Origin: Halorussus ruber
Lineage (GTDB): Archaea > Halobacteriota > Halobacteria > Halobacteriales > Haladaptataceae
NCBI RefSeq assembly: GCF_004765785.1
Contig: NZ_ML219769.1
Location: forward strand, 62,001 to 126,000
Length of the DNA: 64,000 nt
Reading direction: 5' to 3'
This document shows, piece after piece, positions 33,433 through 51,000 of the stretch. Below the pieces are notes generated by a model. It saw only the letters and a program-made list of their open reading frames with translations, was not told where the DNA came from and ran no database searches. The position numbers and the translations under genes are program-made. Position 1 is the stretch's first letter; every line of letters begins with the position of its first letter.

Positions 33433-33466
33433 CGTAGTCTCCTCCGTTCGTTTCGTCGGATTCGAA

Positions 33467-33540
33467 CGCCGGGACGAGGACTCGAACCTCGCGCGGTTCG
33501 GGTAACAGCCGAACTCCCGCACCCGGCGGGACCTCCCGGC
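33467..33540 (-). tRNA. tRNA-Asn (anticodon GTT)
   Basis: Read on the minus strand: acceptor GCCGGGA pairs with TCCCGGC plus discriminator G. The anticodon arm is TTCGG-CTGTTAC-CCGAA with anticodon GTT. The T arm is CGAGG-TTCGAGT-CCTCG. The CCA end is not encoded. Confidence 0.95.
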
Positions 33541-33552
33541 AGGGAATCCGCA

Positions 33553-33625
33553 TGCGCCGACCCGGACTCGAACCGGGGCCTCCAGCGTGGAAGGCTGGCG
33601 TCCTGACCGACTGGACTACCGGCGC
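33553..33625 (-). tRNA. tRNA-Gly (anticodon TCC)
   Basis: Acceptor GCGCCGG pairs with TCGGCGC (one G-U) with discriminator A. The anticodon arm is CCAGC-CTTCCAC-GCTGG, anticodon TCC. The T arm is CCCGG-TTCGAGT-CCGGG. It lies 12 bp from tRNA-Asn. Confidence 0.95.
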
Positions 33626-33684
33626 GCAGGTCGTCGCCCCCGTCGAAGGGGAGCGGTCGGATGCCGCCTCGGATGCGGCGGCGA

Positions 33685-33755
33685 TGGGTGCGGACCGAAT
33701 CGAACGGCCATCTCCCGCTCTGGAGGCAGGCGTCGTGCCGTTGGACCACGCACCC
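33685..33755 (-). tRNA. tRNA with apparent anticodon CCA, no intron (Trp-like; identity uncertain)
   Basis: Acceptor GGGTGCG pairs perfectly with CGCACCC, discriminator A. The anticodon arm is CCTGC-CTCCAGA-GCGGG (one T-G pair), giving anticodon CCA for Trp. The T arm is GGCCG-TTCGATT-CGGTC. The D stem is weak (GTCC/CGAC with one mismatch). The usual haloarchaeal tRNA-Trp carries a large intron after position 37 and U at 39; here there is no intron and G at 39. It may be a second Trp-type tRNA, a tRNA-like pseudogene, or a misread anticodon. Confidence 0.6.
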
Positions 33756-33759
33756 GAGA

Positions 33760-33845
33760 CGGCGGGAGGGCGATTCGAACGCCCGCGTCCTCGCGGACAC
33801 CGCGGTTCCAGCGCGGCCCCTTGGCCCGACTGGGGAAATCCCGCC
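33760..33845 (-). tRNA. tRNA-Ser (anticodon GGA)
   Basis: Acceptor GGCGGGA pairs with TCCCGCC, discriminator G as in serine tRNAs. The anticodon arm is CCGCG-CTGGAAC-CGCGG with anticodon GGA. A long variable arm TGTCC-GCGA-GGAC makes it class II. The T arm is GGGCG-TTCGAAT-CGCCC. Its 3' end is only 4 bp from the CCA-anticodon tRNA, so these are processed from one transcript. Confidence 0.95.
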
Positions 33846-33889
33846 ATCGCGGTCTCTCGCGTCTGGACTGGGTGTGGTGTAGAACCGTT

Positions 33890-39870: not shown

Positions 39871-39945
39871 GCTGGAGAATATATTTATTACTTATAAGAA
39901 TAAAATAATTTTTAAATATAATAAAATATTTCTGAACGTGTTTTT
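39871..39945. other. AT-rich block beside the 18-bp array
   Basis: About 75 bp consist almost only of A and T (AATATATTTATTACTTATAA and onward), extreme against the surrounding sequence. It lies between the aldo/keto reductase promoter and repeat block A. It could be a promoter, a region that melts easily, or part of the segregation site. Confidence 0.6.
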
Positions 39946-39971
39946 GGGCGGGAGCGCGCCCACTAACAGCG

Positions 39972-40188
39972 TTTATACATTCTAAACTGTGTGGATATTC
40001 TAAACTCTGTAAATATTCTACACCTTTCAGGCATTCTAGACCTTGTAGATATTCTACACCTTGTAAACATTCTACACCTTGCGAAGATTTTAGATATTGC
40101 GGGTCCTGGAGACGTTGCAGACTGTTTAGAACCTGTGGACCGTCGAAAATTCGCAGACGATCTCAGAACTTGCGGCCCCTCCAGACCC
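39972..40188 (+). repeat. 18-bp degenerate array, block A (downstream of the parA operon)
   Basis: Twelve head-to-tail 18-bp units run without gaps, e.g. TGTGGATATTCTAAACTC, TGTAAATATTCTACACCT, TGTAGATATTCTACACCT and TGTAAACATTCTACACCT. The best unit is a dyad (TGTAGA-TAT-TCTACA) plus 3 bp. Units grow more GC-rich toward the gene and run up to the stop codon of the partner gene. Unlike a CRISPR array there are no spacers. Confidence 0.88.
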
Positions 40189-40203
40189 CGACCCTCGCGG
40201 GAC

Positions 40204-40692
40204 CTACTCGTCGTCCCGGAGTTGGACGACGAGGTCCGCGACCTCCTCGGGTCGCTCGGCCGCGAGGCGAATCATCGCGTCGTGGAGTTCGCGCCCGGCG
40301 AGGTCCCGCACGTCGTGTTCGCGCCGGAGGACGCCCTCGACTTCGAACTCGACGTCGTCCAGCGTGTCGCGGGCGGTTTCGGTCCGCGGGTAGATGCTGG
40401 TCTGGGCCGTCGTCCCGAAGTCGAAGGCGGGGCCGCCCTCGTCTGTCTCCTCGGTTTCGGCGGATTTCTCGACTTCGTTGGATTCCTCGGCCCCGTCAGT
40501 GTTTTTCTCCACTTCGGCTTCCTCCTCGGCGGCGTCTCCGGTTTTCTCCTCGGCGGCGTCTCCGACTTCCCCCTCGGCGACATCTTCGGACTCCGACGTG
40601 AGCGCGTCGGAGTCCGAAGTTTCCGCGTCCTCGTCGTCGCTTCCCTCGCCGAGTTGCTCGCTGATTCCCGCGAAGCGGTTGTCGTCAGCCAT
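40204..40692 (-). CDS. acidic ParA-partner protein, candidate centromere-binding protein
   Basis: I do not recognise this 162-aa protein. Residues ~15-90 are a disordered, Glu/Asp/Ser-rich region with small repeats (GDAAEEKTGDAAEEEAEVEK). Residues ~95-162 form a compact helical domain (SIYPRTETARDTLDDVEFEVEG.., GRELHDAMIRLAAERPEEVADLVVQLRDDE). It starts inside the last codons of parA (8-bp overlap). Small partners in this place (ParG, Omega, AspA-type) bind the centromere, which makes this a candidate binder of the flanking 18-bp units. No HTH or RHH is obvious. Confidence 0.7.
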   Translation of the reverse strand: MADDNRFAGISEQLGEGSDDEDAETSDSDALTSESEDVAEGEVGDAAEEKTGDAAEEEAEVEKNTDGAEESNEVEKSAETEETDEGGPAFDFGTTAQTSIYPRTETARDTLDDVEFEVEGVLRREHDVRDLAGRELHDAMIRLAAERPEEVADLVVQLRDDE

Positions 40693-41545
40693 CGAGGCGC
40701 ACCTCCTCGCGCTGGGCCTCCTCGCTTTCCGAGGCGACCTCGCCGCGTTCCACGATTGCCGCGAGTTCGTCGAGGCGCGGGAGCATGTCGCTCTCGGGGT
40801 CGTACTCGGCCAGCGGGACGCCCTCTCGCCACGCCCGACTGAACGCGATGCGGTCGCGGATGCCCGGGCCGGGCGAGTCAGACTGTTCAAAATGTGTGGA
40901 CCGTGCGAACTGTGGAAGCTGTTTGCTGAACGGCGAGTCTTCGAGGTCCGAGATGATTCGCTTCTCCTCGTTGTTGCCCGACAGCGAGTTCGGGACGATG
41001 GCGAGGATTTCGAGTTCGACCTCGTTCTGAATCGGCTTGATTTGCTGGTCGACCATGCGCTCGAACCCGCTGACGCTCGGTTCGCTCATCAGCAGCGGGA
41101 CGATGACGTTACCGGTGGCTATCATCGCGGCGTCCGAGAGCGGGCCGAGGTTCGGCGGGGCGTCCACGACGATGTAGTCGTACTTCTCGCCCAGCAGCGG
41201 CTCGACCACCTTCCGGCGGAGCCAGAGCATGCCGAACGTGGAGTTGCGGACCTTGTCTTCGAGGTCGTCGAAGTCCTCGTGGGCGGGAATCACGTCGAAG
41301 TTCTGTACCTGCTGGATGACGTCCGCCGGATCCGGGCCGTCGTCCTCGGTGAGGACGTGCCCGAGGTGCGTGTCGGCCTTGTAGAACTCCTCGAGGCCGA
41401 CGCCTTCGGTCGCGTTGCCCTGCTGGTCGAGGTCCACGAGGAGGACCTCGTTGCCGCGGGCCGCGAGTCGCTCGGCGAGGTTGATAGCGATGGTCGTTTT
41501 CCCGACGCCACCCTTCTGGAGACTGACGGTTACTGCGCGTGCCAT
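40685..41545 (-). CDS. ParA/Soj-family partition ATPase
   Basis: This 286-aa ATPase begins MARAVTVSLQKGGVGKTT with the deviant Walker A at 11-18 (K11 and K16). It has VLLVDLDQQGNAT (Walker A') and DYIVVDAPPNLGPLSDAAMIA (Walker B), then LLMSEPSVSGFERM. The C-terminus (REGVPLAEYDPESDMLPRLDELA) is typical of Soj-like proteins. There is no N-terminal DNA-binding domain, so it is the short type that binds DNA nonspecifically and needs a partner. A longer frame upstream exists only because the 18-bp repeats stay open in all frames; ATG at 41545 is the start. Confidence 0.94.
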   Translation of the reverse strand: MARAVTVSLQKGGVGKTTIAINLAERLAARGNEVLLVDLDQQGNATEGVGLEEFYKADTHLGHVLTEDDGPDPADVIQQVQNFDVIPAHEDFDDLEDKVRNSTFGMLWLRRKVVEPLLGEKYDYIVVDAPPNLGPLSDAAMIATGNVIVPLLMSEPSVSGFERMVDQQIKPIQNEVELEILAIVPNSLSGNNEEKRIISDLEDSPFSKQLPQFARSTHFEQSDSPGPGIRDRIAFSRAWREGVPLAEYDPESDMLPRLDELAAIVERGEVASESEEAQREEVRLDG

Positions 41546-41777
41546 AGTGATTTTCTCCCTCCTCACGGTCTGAACAGCCCACAATGTGTGGACATTCCAC
41601 GCTTTCCAGACAGTTCGCAACGTGCGGACAGTCGGAAAACTGCGGACGGTTGACAAACTGCAGACAGTCCGCGAACTGTGAGCAGTCTGCGACGTGTGGA
41701 CTGCCTGCGACGTGTGGATTGTCCGTGACGTGTGGACATCACAGACGGTTCGCACGTCGGCGGAACCCCGAAGCGTC

Positions 41778-41806
41778 TGGAATATCCGGACGGTCCGGAT
41801 ATTCCA
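41778..41806. promoter_or_regulatory. perfect 29-bp palindrome inside block B
   Basis: Arms TGGAATATCCGGAC and GTCCGGATATTCCA flank a single G. It lies where the 18-bp phase changes by 9 bp, near the middle of block B and about 230 bp upstream of parA. It may be the nucleation site for the centromere-binding protein and an operator for parA. Confidence 0.75.
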
Positions 41807-41953
41807 CGGTGTTCAGACACCCCACGAGGTTCGGACATTCCACAACGTTCAGACACTCCACAATGTTCGGACAGCTCACGATTTTCGCACACTCTACGAT
41901 GTTCGAGCGCGGTCGGTCGCCCGAGCGTCGCGGGCTTTCCGGACAGTCCAGAC

Positions 41954-41990
41954 GGTCCGGAGTTCTCGCACGGTTCGAGAACTCCGGACC
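41954..41990. repeat. perfect 15-bp-arm inverted repeat inside block B
   Basis: GGTCCGGAGTTCTCG, then 7 bp, then CGAGAACTCCGGACC. The arms are fully complementary. It shares the TCCGGA core with the 29-bp palindrome 150 bp away, so both may bind one protein. Confidence 0.75.
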
Positions 41991-42261
41991 TCGTGAAATG
42001 TTCAAACATTGTAGACCGTTCAGACTATGTGCGGTGTTTGGAGCGTTTACACAGTCTCAGTACGGCTCTATAATGCTTCCGACGCTCGACCGATTTTCGA
42101 CAGTCCGTAAGGTCCGAAACCTGTACAATTTTCACACATTGTAGAAATTCTAAACTGTCCAGAAACTTTGGAGGGTGGGGTCAAATCAGCGTGGGCGTTC
42201 AGGGCGGAAGGTGCCAACCAGAGGACAAAACTGATACCGGGCGGCTCGGAATCGGCGGACG

Positions 42262-44936: not shown

Positions 44937-45084
44937 TTTGAAGTGAGTGGGTAGGATGTAGTTTGAAGTGGGCGGGTGGGATGGGGTGAGCGGGTGAGAT
45001 GGGGGTGAGCGGGTGGGATGGAGTGAGCGGGAGGAAGTCGAGACGACGAAATCAGACGAGAAGGGGTCGCTCTGAATGAGGGGA

Positions 45085-45446: not shown

Positions 45447-45596
45447 TGTGTCGGCCGAGTTCCTTCCGCTCGCCCTCAAGTTCACTCCTCACCTTTGACT
45501 TTACTCCTCGCCTCCGATTTCACCCTCGACTTCATCTCACCCTCAACTTCACTTCACCCTCAACGTTACTTCACCCCGACTTCACCTCGCCCTCGA

Positions 45597-45618
45597 CTTC
45601 ATTTGAAACCCGGTGTCG
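45597..45618 (-). promoter_or_regulatory. ORB-like box 4 (inverted)
   Basis: CTTCATTTGAAACCCGGTG then TCG. It lies 173 bp after box 3, the same spacing as between boxes 1 and 2. Confidence 0.78.
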
Positions 45619-45810
45619 AACCTGATGTATTCTATCCATGACCTGTTGCAGAACGCCCACGAAGGACGACCGGGAAAACATCCACGAACGACGACTAAAA
45701 AAGGCGGACACGGAAACAGTTGGTTCTGCGAGCAGACAACCGCTCGAACCTCCTCTCGCGCTGAAAACACCTCGATACCGAGACTTCCCCGACGAGAAAG
45801 AACTAAGGCG

Positions 45811-45832
45811 ATTTCATTTGAAATCCGGTGTA
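45811..45832 (-). promoter_or_regulatory. ORB-like box 5, overlapping the orc1 start
   Basis: ATTTCATTTGAAATCCGGTG then TA of the start codon context TATGG. The box runs into the ATG of orc1/cdc6, so binding of Orc1 there should repress its own gene. Confidence 0.82.
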
Positions 45833-47211
45833 TGGCCGACAGCGTAGACCAACGAACGCTCGGCGAGTACGCCGCCGAACACGGGGCCGTCGCTCACTCG
45901 CGGACCGAACAGCGCGACGACCCCCTCTCAGTCCTCAACGAGGAGGACCCCATCTTCACCGACGAGAGCCTGCTCCGAATCGACCACGTGCCGAATCAGG
46001 ACAAAATCGTCGGCCGAAACCGGCAAATCGAGACCGTCGCGCGCCGCCTCAAATCGACGCTCGACGGCGGGTCCGGCAAGGGCACGCTCCTGCTCGGCAA
46101 ATCCGGGTCCGGAAAGACGCTCGTCACGCGGTACGTCAGTCGGGAAGTCGAACAGCGAGCGCGGGACAACGACGTCCGAGTCGGGCGCGCAATCGTGGAC
46201 TGCGGCCAGCGCCGCTCCGAAACCCAGACCGTCATCAACCTCGCCAAATCGCTCAACCGACCGGACGAGACCGGCGTCTCCATTCCCGCCTCGGGCATCG
46301 CCACCGGGGCGTACTACGACCGCCTCTGGGACATCATCAACCAACTCTACGACGCCGTCATCGTGGTGCTGGACGAAATCGACCGCCTCGCGCCCAACGA
46401 CGAGTTCAACACGGGTATGCCCCCAGAGGAGGCCGACGACAGCAAACTCCTCATGCAACTCTCGCGCGCTGGCGAGGAGAACGACATCGACGCGGGGATG
46501 ACGGTGCTGGGCATCAGCAACGACCTGAAGTACGGCGACCGACTCGACACGCGCGTCGAGAGTTCCTTCTCGCCCGACGAAATCGTCTTCCCCGCCTACG
46601 ACGCCAACCAACTCGGCGAAATCCTCGAACGACGGCGCGACGCCTTCAAGGACGGGGTCCTCTCGGACGACGTGATTCCGCTCTGCTCGGCGTTCTCCGC
46701 GCAGGAACACGGCGACGCCCGGCGCGCGCTCGACCTCTTTCGCCTCTCGGGCGAAATCGCCCGCGACGAGGACGCCGACGAGGTCCGCGAGGAACACGTC
46801 CGCTCGGCGAACGACGACGCCGAGGTCACGCGCATCCGGGACCTGATTCGGGGCTGTCCGACGCAGGCCAAAATCGCCATCGCCTCGCTGGCCGCGATGG
46901 ACGAGTTCACCGACCGGTCGTACTTCAAAGCGACCGAGATGTACCGCGTCTATCGGGCCTTCGCGCAGGCCATCAACGTGGACGAACTCGGCCAGAAGCG
47001 CATCACCGACCAGCTCCGGGAGTACGAGACGCTCAAAATCATCGACATGGACCGCACCAGCGACGGCTACCGCGAGGGCACCTACCTCAAACTCTCGCTA
47101 CTCGACGACTCGAACCTCATCCTCCAGTCGGTCGGCCTCGACAGCAGACTCGCGGACATCCCCATCGGCGGCGACATGCGCCGGGAAATCGTCAAGCTGG
47201 TCGAATCCTGA
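45832..47211 (+). CDS. orc1/cdc6: Orc1/Cdc6 replication initiator
   Basis: This 459-aa initiator is an AAA+ ATPase with Walker A GKSGSGKT (89-96), Walker B VVLDEID (D181, E182), sensor 1 LGISNDLKYGDRLDTRVESSF and the helical lid (HGDARRALDLFRLSGE). A C-terminal winged helix for ORB binding follows (about 350-455, TEMYRVYRAFAQAINVD.., ITDQLREYETLKIIDMD). It binds the ORB boxes upstream and loads the MCM helicase. ATG at 45832 follows box 5 directly. An upstream frame to 45613 is open but runs through box 4-5 DNA and is not coding. Confidence 0.95.
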   Translation: MADSVDQRTLGEYAAEHGAVAHSRTEQRDDPLSVLNEEDPIFTDESLLRIDHVPNQDKIVGRNRQIETVARRLKSTLDGGSGKGTLLLGKSGSGKTLVTRYVSREVEQRARDNDVRVGRAIVDCGQRRSETQTVINLAKSLNRPDETGVSIPASGIATGAYYDRLWDIINQLYDAVIVVLDEIDRLAPNDEFNTGMPPEEADDSKLLMQLSRAGEENDIDAGMTVLGISNDLKYGDRLDTRVESSFSPDEIVFPAYDANQLGEILERRRDAFKDGVLSDDVIPLCSAFSAQEHGDARRALDLFRLSGEIARDEDADEVREEHVRSANDDAEVTRIRDLIRGCPTQAKIAIASLAAMDEFTDRSYFKATEMYRVYRAFAQAINVDELGQKRITDQLREYETLKIIDMDRTSDGYREGTYLKLSLLDDSNLILQSVGLDSRLADIPIGGDMRREIVKLVES

Positions 47212-48012: not shown

Positions 48013-51000
48013 GGGTGACTCCTCGGAGAGTTCTGCTGAAACTGGGAGAACCCGCCCGAGTACGCGACCCAGAAGGCTTCAAACCCACAAGGGTTCTCCT
48101 GAAACTTGCACCACGCGCCCGCGCTTCGCCACCCAAACGAGGCTTCAAACCCACAAGGGTTCTGCTGAAACGTGGCCGTACTCGGCGGGCGCGGAGCCTT
48201 CACCCGAGCTTCAAACCCACAAGGGTTCTGCTGAAACGTATGCGTCGTCGGGCCGGAACAGCGGCCGGTCGAGGCTTCAAACCCACAAGGGTTCTGCTGA
48301 AACACGCCTACCAAGACTTCTGGCTGGAGCAACTCACGCTTCAAACCCACAAGGGTTCTGCTGAAACGGTTATCTTTAGCCCCCAGTCTGTAGACTGCGA
48401 CATGAGCTTCAAACCCACAAGGGTTCTGCTGAAACCGTCTGCGTCGCCAATCTCCGGCTTGTCGCCCCGGCCGCTTCAAACCCACAAGGGTTCTGCTGAA
48501 ACACCAAATCCGGTCAGCCGCCGGACGGCGGACAAGTGCTTCAAACCCACAAGGGTTCTGCTGAAACCTCGATTTCTTCGCCAACTGCCGGAGCGCCAAC
48601 GTGCTTCAAACCCACAAGGGTTCTGCTGAAACCACGTCTACCACATGACCGGCGGCGCGGCGAGCCTCGCTTCAAACCCACAAGGGTTCTGCTGAAACAC
48701 GTGCAGGCTGGCGCGCCGACCGACCCGGTCGAGGGCGCTTCAAACCCACAAGGGTTCTGCTGAAACTCGCGCGAGAACATCGAACTCGGGTTGCAGATTG
48801 CGCTTCAAACCCACAAGGGTTCTGCTGAAACCGTCTCCGTGGACGCTATCGGGCAACTCCACGGGCTTCAAACCCACAAGGGTTCTGCTGAAACCCGCGA
48901 GACCGACCGGGAGTGGCCCGACGACCTGCTTCAAACCCACAAGGGTTCTGCTGAAACCGTCTCCGTGGACGCTATCGGGCAACTCCACGGGCTTCAAACC
49001 CACAAGGGTTCTGCTGAAACCGAGACCGACTCGCGGGGCCTCTACAAGGAGGTGCTGCTTCAAACCCACAAGGGTTCTGCTGAAACAGGGGACGCGACCT
49101 CCTCGACGGGGGTATGCGACCCGGCTTCAAACCCACAAGGGTTCTGCTGAAACACCGGCGTGACCGGCGCACAGGGCAACTACGGGGGAGCTTCAAACCC
49201 ACAAGGGTTCTGCTGAAACAGGACTACGTCGTATGAACGCTCGATTCCGGGCCGCTTCAAACCCACAAGGGTTCTGCTGAAACGACGGCCGGGCTTCGCG
49301 TACGGCGCGAGTGCGGCCTGCTTCAAACCCACAAGGGTTCTGCTGAAACATTCGGTCCGTGGCCACGACTATGGGACGCGACATACCGCTTCAAACCCAC
49401 AAGGGTTCTGCTGAAACAGGTGAAGCACGAATGAATTCGACCCAACCGCGTAAGCTTCAAACCCACAAGGGTTCTGCTGAAACCGGCGGGGGTGGTCCCG
49501 GCCTTCTCGACGGTCCCGCGGCTTCAAACCCACAAGGGTTCTGCTGAAACTGGCAGGGGATCGAGGTTGCGAACGTCTGGCCGAAGGCTTCAAACCCACA
49601 AGGGTTCTGCTGAAACGGACCACGCTCCGTGTTCTCGGTCGGTCCGGTCTTGGCTTCAAACCCACAAGGGTTCTGCTGAAACGCTGTATCCCTCTTGTCG
49701 TCTAGTCACCGGCTAGCACGCTTCAAACCCACAAGGGTTCTGCTGAAACACCGTCCCGAGGGTCCGGAACGGGATTGTGTCTCCCGCTTCAAACCCACAA
49801 GGGTTCTGCTGAAACCGCCAACAGCACCGCGAAGTCCTCGTCGTACGCGCTGCTTCAAACCCACAAGGGTTCTGCTGAAACCTGCTGTCGCATACTCGGA
49901 CTGACACCTATCGAGCTTCAAACCCACAAGGGTTCTGCTGAAACAAATTCACCCGAACCCCCCACCGAGATTACCGTTTGCTTCAAACCCACAAGGGTTC
50001 TGCTGAAACTTGTGGTTCGTCGGGACTTGTCCCCCGAGATGGGAGCTTCAAACCCACAAGGGTTCTGCTGAAACCCGTGAACGGGTGGATTGCTGAGCGG
50101 GGCGGATTCAACGCTTCAAACCCACAAGGGTTCTGCTGAAACATCGGGGGCGAAACCGGCGCGGGCAAAAGTGTCCTCGGCTTCAAACCCACAAGGGTTC
50201 TGCTGAAACAGACGTGCGCGACCGGTTGGACTCGGACCCATCGGGGCTTCAAACCCACAAGGGTTCTGCTGAAACCGGTACTGCTGGCGGATCTCGTCGC
50301 GGGGGATGCCGTGGCTTCAAACCCACAAGGGTTCTGCTGAAACGCCGCACGATGACCCGGAAGACCCACACGAGGCCGCTTCAAACCCACAAGGGTTCTG
50401 CTGAAACCTCGTCGTCCCGCTGGTGTTCTCGGCGTCCTCGGTGCTTCAAACCCACAAGGGTTCTGCTGAAACGCGAGTAGCATAACCGTGAATTTCGTGG
50501 AGCAGGGGCTTCAAACCCACAAGGGTTCTGCTGAAACCGGCGTCGCAGGGCTGGCCGGTCGGGCGCTGTCCTCGCTTCAAACCCACAAGGGTTCTGCTGA
50601 AACACGTCGGGTACTGTTGACCTTTCCGCGACCTACACCGCTTCAAACCCACAAGGGTTCTGCTGAAACCGGCCGCCGACGCGAACCCGAGCGCGCGCCA
50701 CCCGTAGCTTCAAACCCACAAGGGTTCTGCTGAAACTAGCGCACGGTGAGATGCTCGGCCGAGTAATTCACCGCTTCAAACCCACAAGGGTTCTGCTGAA
50801 ACCAGTACGGCGCGGAGTACATCATCGAGAACAAACCGCTTCAAACCCACAAGGGTTCTGCTGAAACAACGGCCAGCGACGACGTGCGGATGGTCGAGGT
50901 CGAGCTTCAAACCCACAAGGGTTCTGCTGAAACCCGATTCACGACCGTCTTGTCGGTCGCGGTAGTGTGCTTCAAACCCACAAGGGTTCTGCTGAAACGA

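Follow-up and report, generated by a model that had tools for sequence, protein, structure and literature searches.

A parA–partner operon with an upstream array of contiguous 9-bp sites: a putative partition system widespread in haloarchaea

The parA operon and its nonamer arrays in Halorussus ruber

We analysed a 64-kb stretch of Halorussus ruber DNA (hereafter the window; positions are those of this stretch) that carries parA and a small partner gene in one operon. parA (40685–41545, minus strand) translates to a 286-aa deviant Walker A ATPase (Pfam AAA_31, E = 1.8e-36), 68.3% identical over its full length to the ParA of two Haloferax plasmids. The motif KGGVGKTT at residues 11–18, together with the AAA_31 domain, marks the product as a type I ParA ATPase, and K11, G12, G13, G15, K16 and T18 were invariant in an alignment of 14 sequences. 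The partner gene (40204–40692, minus strand), recognised by a family profile and by its place behind parA, encodes a putative centromere-binding protein of 162 aa, in which an acidic tail of ~85 aa is followed by a C-terminal domain of ~75 aa. The two genes overlap by 8 bp, in agreement with a preliminary description of this DNA that had a small acidic partner starting inside parA. Overlaps were 1–11 bp in 18 loci inspected (start codons picked nearest the parA stop), and the acidic tails of the relatives' partners vary in length. A 24-bp repeat lies at 40515–40579, within the acidic-tail part of the partner gene. The partner had no family match in searches of Pfam, NCBIfam, PHROGs and PDB, and neither Pfam nor NCBIfam assigned it to a ParB family of the HTH/CTPase type.

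Dense periodic arrays flank the two genes, with block A (39972–40160) 3′ of the partner and block B (41556–42055) 5′ of parA. Arrays on either side of the cassette had been described before, and comparison with first-order Markov shuffles confirmed both of them (z = 16 for 39881–40206; z = 23 for 41546–42260). The described change in base composition between them was also recovered (GC 0.40 vs 0.55 for the same two stretches), block A being the richer in A+T. When the 64 kb were scanned for self-similarity (180-bp windows, 30-bp steps, lags 8–49), a 15-bp repeat at 53.5–53.6 kb scored highest, with blocks A and B close behind.

We observed that the unit of the arrays is a 9-bp slot, consisting of a 6-bp site (TGTRGA or its complement, in either orientation) and a 3-bp spacer. 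TGTAGA and TGTGGA hexamers and their complements have an identical phase modulo 9 on both strands. The preliminary description had read the unit as 18 bp, with all copies in one orientation; instead, the 18-bp dyad TGTAGATATTCTACACCT is a pair of facing nonamers produced by alternating site orientation. Orientations alternate across much of both blocks, and the sites run head to tail at 40080–40139. Block A holds ~21 slots in one phase (position modulo 9 = 3 over ~39972–40150), and 15 of 24 slots at 39972–40190 match the motif at five or more of six positions (shuffle mean 1.5, maximum 3). The inner part of block B gave 10 of 20 such slots at 41575–41760 (shuffle mean 1.5, maximum 4). Motif matches in its outer parts (4/14 at 41785–41910 and 3/12 at 41935–42045) only equal the shuffle maxima, so the assignment of outer block B rests on its phase, which is unchanged there.

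In block B, phase 7 is maintained between 41556 and ~42055, a single register over ~500 bp and some 55 slots with no slip. Its units have accumulated substitutions but no indels, which suggests a contiguous complex with a register that matters. The end formerly given for this block, 42045, proved too early: the phase runs on to ~42055 and, after a gap of ~40 bp, an outer segment of ~7–8 nonamers follows in phase 2 (42096–42165; mean match 4.88/6 in the 72-bp window from 42096). Degeneracy was said to grow towards the outer edge of both arrays. This fails for block A, where the best sites (39990–40076) lie at the outer edge. A weak isolated nonamer-like run within parA (40876–40925; repeat families D3–D5, mean match 3.50) may be a chance occurrence.

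An orc1/cdc6 frame lies at 45613–47211 on the plus strand. Directly before it are short tandem repeats at 44968–45031 (18 bp) and 45520–45601 (17 bp), which form a candidate replication origin. CRISPR-like arrays with the repeat GCTTCAAACCCACAAGGGTTCTGCTGAAAC occupy 48074–50867, and four predicted tRNA genes (Asn, Gly, Trp and Ser) cluster at 33466–33846 of the same contig. The Halorussus ruber genome holds at least three par loci, and their arrays differ. At one locus in the same genome (L005; C21:2429-6259), the gene of a more distant ParA is followed by that of a different small protein (QLPYYYRRETVKEG...) and preceded by a tandem array with a 13-bp period (z = 14.2), in which a unit of roughly AGTATAGCTATCC can be made out by eye.

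Conservation of the gene pair and of the upstream array

Of 392 sampled genomes of the order, 191 had a match to the partner-family profile (E ≤ 1e-4). The system is widespread and is not confined to this plasmid. We assembled 113 loci: the window, 12 named plasmid loci and 100 whole-genome loci. The plasmid loci came from the best ParA matches (64–71% identical to the window ParA), skipping records that start at parA; the whole-genome loci were hand-picked among the matches listed, leaving out those at the start of a contig and many of the near-identical 169-aa types. In 112 of the 113 loci, ParA and the partner share a strand and the ParA match comes first (ending no more than 900 nt before the partner domain), as expected of the single parA–partner operon of a ParABS locus. 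One locus lacked a ParA match (L156, at the position of L029) and was dropped from the array counts. Among the first 31 partner matches inspected, two (L027 and L029) had no ParA-sized frame upstream; these orphan partner-like genes lie at G078:C5 (L027) and G049:C1 (L029/L156).

To score periodicity, we compared multiples of 9 with other multiples of 3, which cancels codon periodicity. A score of z > 4 was reached by 68 of 112 loci in the 1000-bp stretch before parA, by none inside parA and by one downstream of the partner; 44 of 112 did not reach z > 4 upstream. The mean 9-bp signal of the 112 loci lay within about −900 to 0 of parA and peaked in 200-bp windows starting 200–400 bp upstream. 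There was a small bump at the parA end and partner start, where 10–12% of loci exceeded 0.06 (at +800 and +900). We also applied a local test, which takes the maximum over −600 to −100 and sets the threshold at the 99th percentile of control windows from the same loci. By this test, 103 of 112 family loci have a 9-bp array 100–600 bp upstream of parA, and 97 of 105 do so when near-identical upstream regions are removed. Nine loci failed (L074, L078, L087, L090, L104, L110, L143, L148 and L149), and six further loci passed barely (0.067–0.077). The arrays have a median extent of ~300 bp and reach up to ~1 kb.

We ran the same local test on a control set obtained by a ParA-alignment scan of genome contigs, which consists almost entirely of bacterial ParA and includes one haloarchaeal locus (L160). 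Two of the 78 usable control loci passed (L188 and L213), 2 of the original 80 (L179 and L219) having no upstream DNA. None of the 78 reached z > 4, and none passed an earlier test that used a single window at −300. Iterated sites beside parA, a hallmark of ParABS loci, are present in the family as a DNA pattern (103/112 vs 2/78 in these mostly bacterial controls). At 82 other ParA loci, the partner profile gave no match. Scans of viral contigs gave two distant ParA-like loci (L238 and L240), neither with a partner by the partner HMM.

The preliminary description had named the periodicity beside homologous parA genes as one point on which its reading should be judged; it was kept upstream in the great majority of the family, with the partner behind ParA. 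Flanking arrays on both sides, which it had offered as a feature of the system, did not hold up. The only locus with z > 4 downstream of the partner is the window itself, and 0 of 111 relatives exceed this value there. Because the conserved array is upstream of parA only, the two-sided flanking is a peculiarity of the window locus, and block A is not conserved in relatives. A downstream array scored at one unannotated record (L047) with guessed boundaries (z = 6.2) fell to −1.0 under a codon-aware baseline and was rejected. Overall, the reading as a partition locus stood in its operon, its arrays and their conservation, all by computation, and was given up in its 18-bp register and two-sided layout.

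The upstream position of the array bears on two other readings. The array could be a long autoregulatory operator of the parA operon that has no part in segregation, and it does occupy the parA promoter region throughout the family. Its extent (the median and maximum given above) nevertheless exceeds the needs of an operator, and the second array of the window lies behind the operon, ~500 bp beyond the parA end; we consider a purely regulatory role unlikely. Neutral satellite DNA or chance periodicity is the other reading, as slippage can expand tandem repeats. We regard it as barely credible, since loci that differ in array core between groups share the place and period of the array in 103 of 112 cases, and the window units have diverged by substitution with no indels across ~500 bp.

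The arrays might also be replication iterons, part of an Orc1/Cdc6 origin with parA as a bystander. orc1/cdc6 lies ~4 kb from parA in the window, and orc1 was found in 28 of 111 stretches, where the arrays are stronger (median z 8.2 vs 4.4; z > 4 in 23/28 vs 44/83). Arrays with z > 4 are nevertheless present in those 44 of 83 stretches without orc1, most stretches being ~5.4 kb long, so that an orc1 as far away as that of the window would be missed. Six annotated plasmid loci (L042, L044, L045, L046, L048 and L049), each viewed over 14.8 kb with no orc1 found, gave z of 9–18. Moreover, orc1 is on the downstream side in 19 of the 28 stretches although the array is upstream of parA, and the array motif follows the partner subfamily. 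These data make an origin function of the arrays very improbable.

The gene pair and the array are present on known replicons. On Halobacterium salinarum pNRC100, the pair is accompanied by an array of CTATTC-type nonamers (z = 12.7), and pair and array also occur on Hfx. mediterranei pHME505, Hfx. gibbonsii pHG2 and Htg. turkmenica pHTUR04. Twenty loci lie on contigs longer than 2 Mb, which are probably main chromosomes; 17 of them pass the local test, in some cases by a narrow margin, and z exceeds 4 in 8. Two par loci ~103 kb apart in one genome (L064 and L065; G002:C5) share 99% of 12-mers upstream of parA, possibly through duplication or fusion of replicons. The idea of replicon incompatibility gained no support: where par loci share a genome, they fall into different groups in 10 of 11 cases, but random pairs would be expected to do so at a rate of 0.85.

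Seven more distant haloarchaeal ParA loci (L261–L267) gave a 9-bp z above 4 in four cases. A second partner family, with the strand MYLP or GRTIYIP, has 9-bp arrays at 15 of 33 usable loci, or at 14 of 31 when L264/L268 and L261/L273, each pair judged by coordinates to be one locus seen twice, are counted once. At the Haloglomus irregulare locus (L160), which has a second-family partner, the top period upstream of ParA is 12 bp (z = 6.2), not 9.

Array cores and the partner domain

Array cores vary by partner subfamily while the 9-bp register is kept. Arrays with a AATAGGTA-like motif go with the partner strand Q-R/K-P-L/F-Y-A-R, ACAGTGT-like arrays with K-K-T-V-Y-V-R, GATTCGTA arrays with L-R-R-S-I-Y-A-R and TTGTACA-like arrays with M-Q-M-N-I-Y-A-R. 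For the group of the window (K-S-I-Y-V-R), the pooled de novo motif was weak, and the TGTAGA/TGTRGA core comes from the periodicity and position analyses. Distances between sites on the same strand peaked clearly at 0 modulo 9 in 10 of 14 partner groups; a clear 9-bp preference was absent in the other four (groups 6, 11, 13 and 14; 5 loci).

We assessed covariation of array and partner in 79 loci, each with z > 3 and a partner domain not duplicated in the set. Array similarity followed identity in the partner segment TTAQTSIYPR with a partial correlation of 0.55, corrected for the rest of the domain (permutation maximum 0.12). Among 23 representatives below 70% identity, the correlation was 0.49, above the permutation maximum of 0.34. 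Values for two control DNA regions stayed below the 95th percentile of permutations. By column of the partner domain, positions 9, 11 and 13 scored 0.43–0.46 and positions 10, 12 and 14 scored 0.05–0.07. This every-second-residue pattern fits what is expected of a DNA-reading β-strand, as in a ribbon-helix-helix (RHH) protein. Columns 6 (0.42), 45 (0.39), 55 (0.34) and 16 (0.30) also scored, and part of the covariation may be clade-linked given the scores of columns 6, 45 and 55. Neither of the two large partner clades shows the strand signal internally (−0.19 and 0.04), so the covariation depends on a small number of changes between groups.

Homology searches did not detect an RHH fold in the partner: Pfam and PDB gave no match, and hhalign of the partner family against 19 haloarchaeal RHH_1 sequences (one RHH locus, L242, yielded no sequence) returned a probability of 0.2%. 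The second partner family scored 4% against RHH_1 and 21% against the partner family of the window. Single-sequence AlphaFold2 modelled the window partner domain at pLDDT 81.6 with helices only and no strand, and this model had no match in PDB with E below 6. The L160 partner domain was modelled at pLDDT 59.9, too poor for a structure search. MetJ and other RHH repressors bind tandem 8-bp boxes, short sites that are read by a β-strand; MetJ is a regulator without a ParA, and the MetJ family model had no match in this genome.

A further reading has another binder on the array, ParA itself or a host factor, with the partner as a mere linker; it is favoured by the lack of a recognised DNA-binding domain in the partner. 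The array covaries more strongly with a short segment than with the remainder of the partner domain, a signal carried by few groups, and we therefore give a binder other than the partner little credence.

A putative partition mechanism and its relatives

Taken together, we propose that the locus is a ParABS system in which contiguous nonamers, coated by the putative partner, would form the centromere, much as the 7-bp arrays do in pSM19035. On the computational evidence above, we put the probability of this reading at about 0.78. The partner would bind the 6-bp core of every nonamer, and adjacent partner dimers would line up on neighbouring 9-bp slots and pack against each other, so that the protein-coated array would serve as the centromere (parS). 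This complex of partner and array would capture and discharge nucleoid ParA-ATP, and the replicon copies would thereby be moved apart. If protein packing sets the register and the DNA-reading residues set the core, the core could vary across subfamilies with the register kept. The array reaches the parA start, and for this reason it probably also represses the parA–partner operon.

A close likeness, by description, is to the delta/omega system of pSM19035 (ParA and an RHH ParB), which also has a ParA with a small partner and contiguous short sites, direct or inverted, overlapping promoters including that of parA (PMC9499535). The pSM19035 units are 7-bp WATCACW heptads in six sites of 7–10 repeats (PMC9499535), whereas the window has 9-bp units with other cores and its main array upstream of parA. 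By period and core, the window locus is not an omega/parS heptad system. As described for pSM19035, its small RHH ParB needs at least four contiguous 7-bp sites for ParA activation (PMC9499535).

Two archaeal systems were also compared by description. SegAB of the Sulfolobales likewise pairs a ParA homologue with a small partner that has sites upstream of segA, and its core TCTAGA resembles TCTACA of the window array (PMC12284271). The 13-bp SegB sites are scattered over the chromosome (PMC12284271), whereas the exact 15-bp dyad of the window occurs solely at its par locus: in a genome-wide scan of dyads, TGTRGA-N3-TCYACA had its only exact place there. With up to one mismatch, 18 places were found, 6 of them at the window par locus, compared with 27 places for a backward-read control. 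The pNOB8 system is, like the one proposed here, an archaeal plasmid partition system with a ParA and a centromere-binding protein (PMC9178275); it uses three proteins, ParA, AspA and ParB, whereas two are seen in the window.

ParABS systems with an iterated centromere are already known; what is new is the 9-bp register, the unnamed partner family and the occurrence in haloarchaea. In the open-access literature, covered through titles and the openings of abstracts, we found no description of these arrays or of the partner. The main text of a 2022 review of ParA contains no word beginning with "halo".

In a broader view, towards which we lean on balance, the loci would represent a pan-haloarchaeal partition class. 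Small acidic-tailed partners would form a continuous filament on DNA sites whose register does not change (9 bp in two partner families, 12 or 13 bp elsewhere), and a few β-strand residues would re-specify the core. The class would serve megaplasmids, including pNRC100, and some main chromosomes of polyploid archaea. A 2016 review lists the simultaneous segregation of chromosome and megaplasmids in halophilic archaea as an outstanding question (PMC5120986). Since pNRC100 and pHME505, replicons of laboratory strains, now offer candidates for both the protein and the centromere, this question can be put to a direct test. The constant register, the changing core and the residues that track it offer a natural specificity series for how the partner may read DNA.
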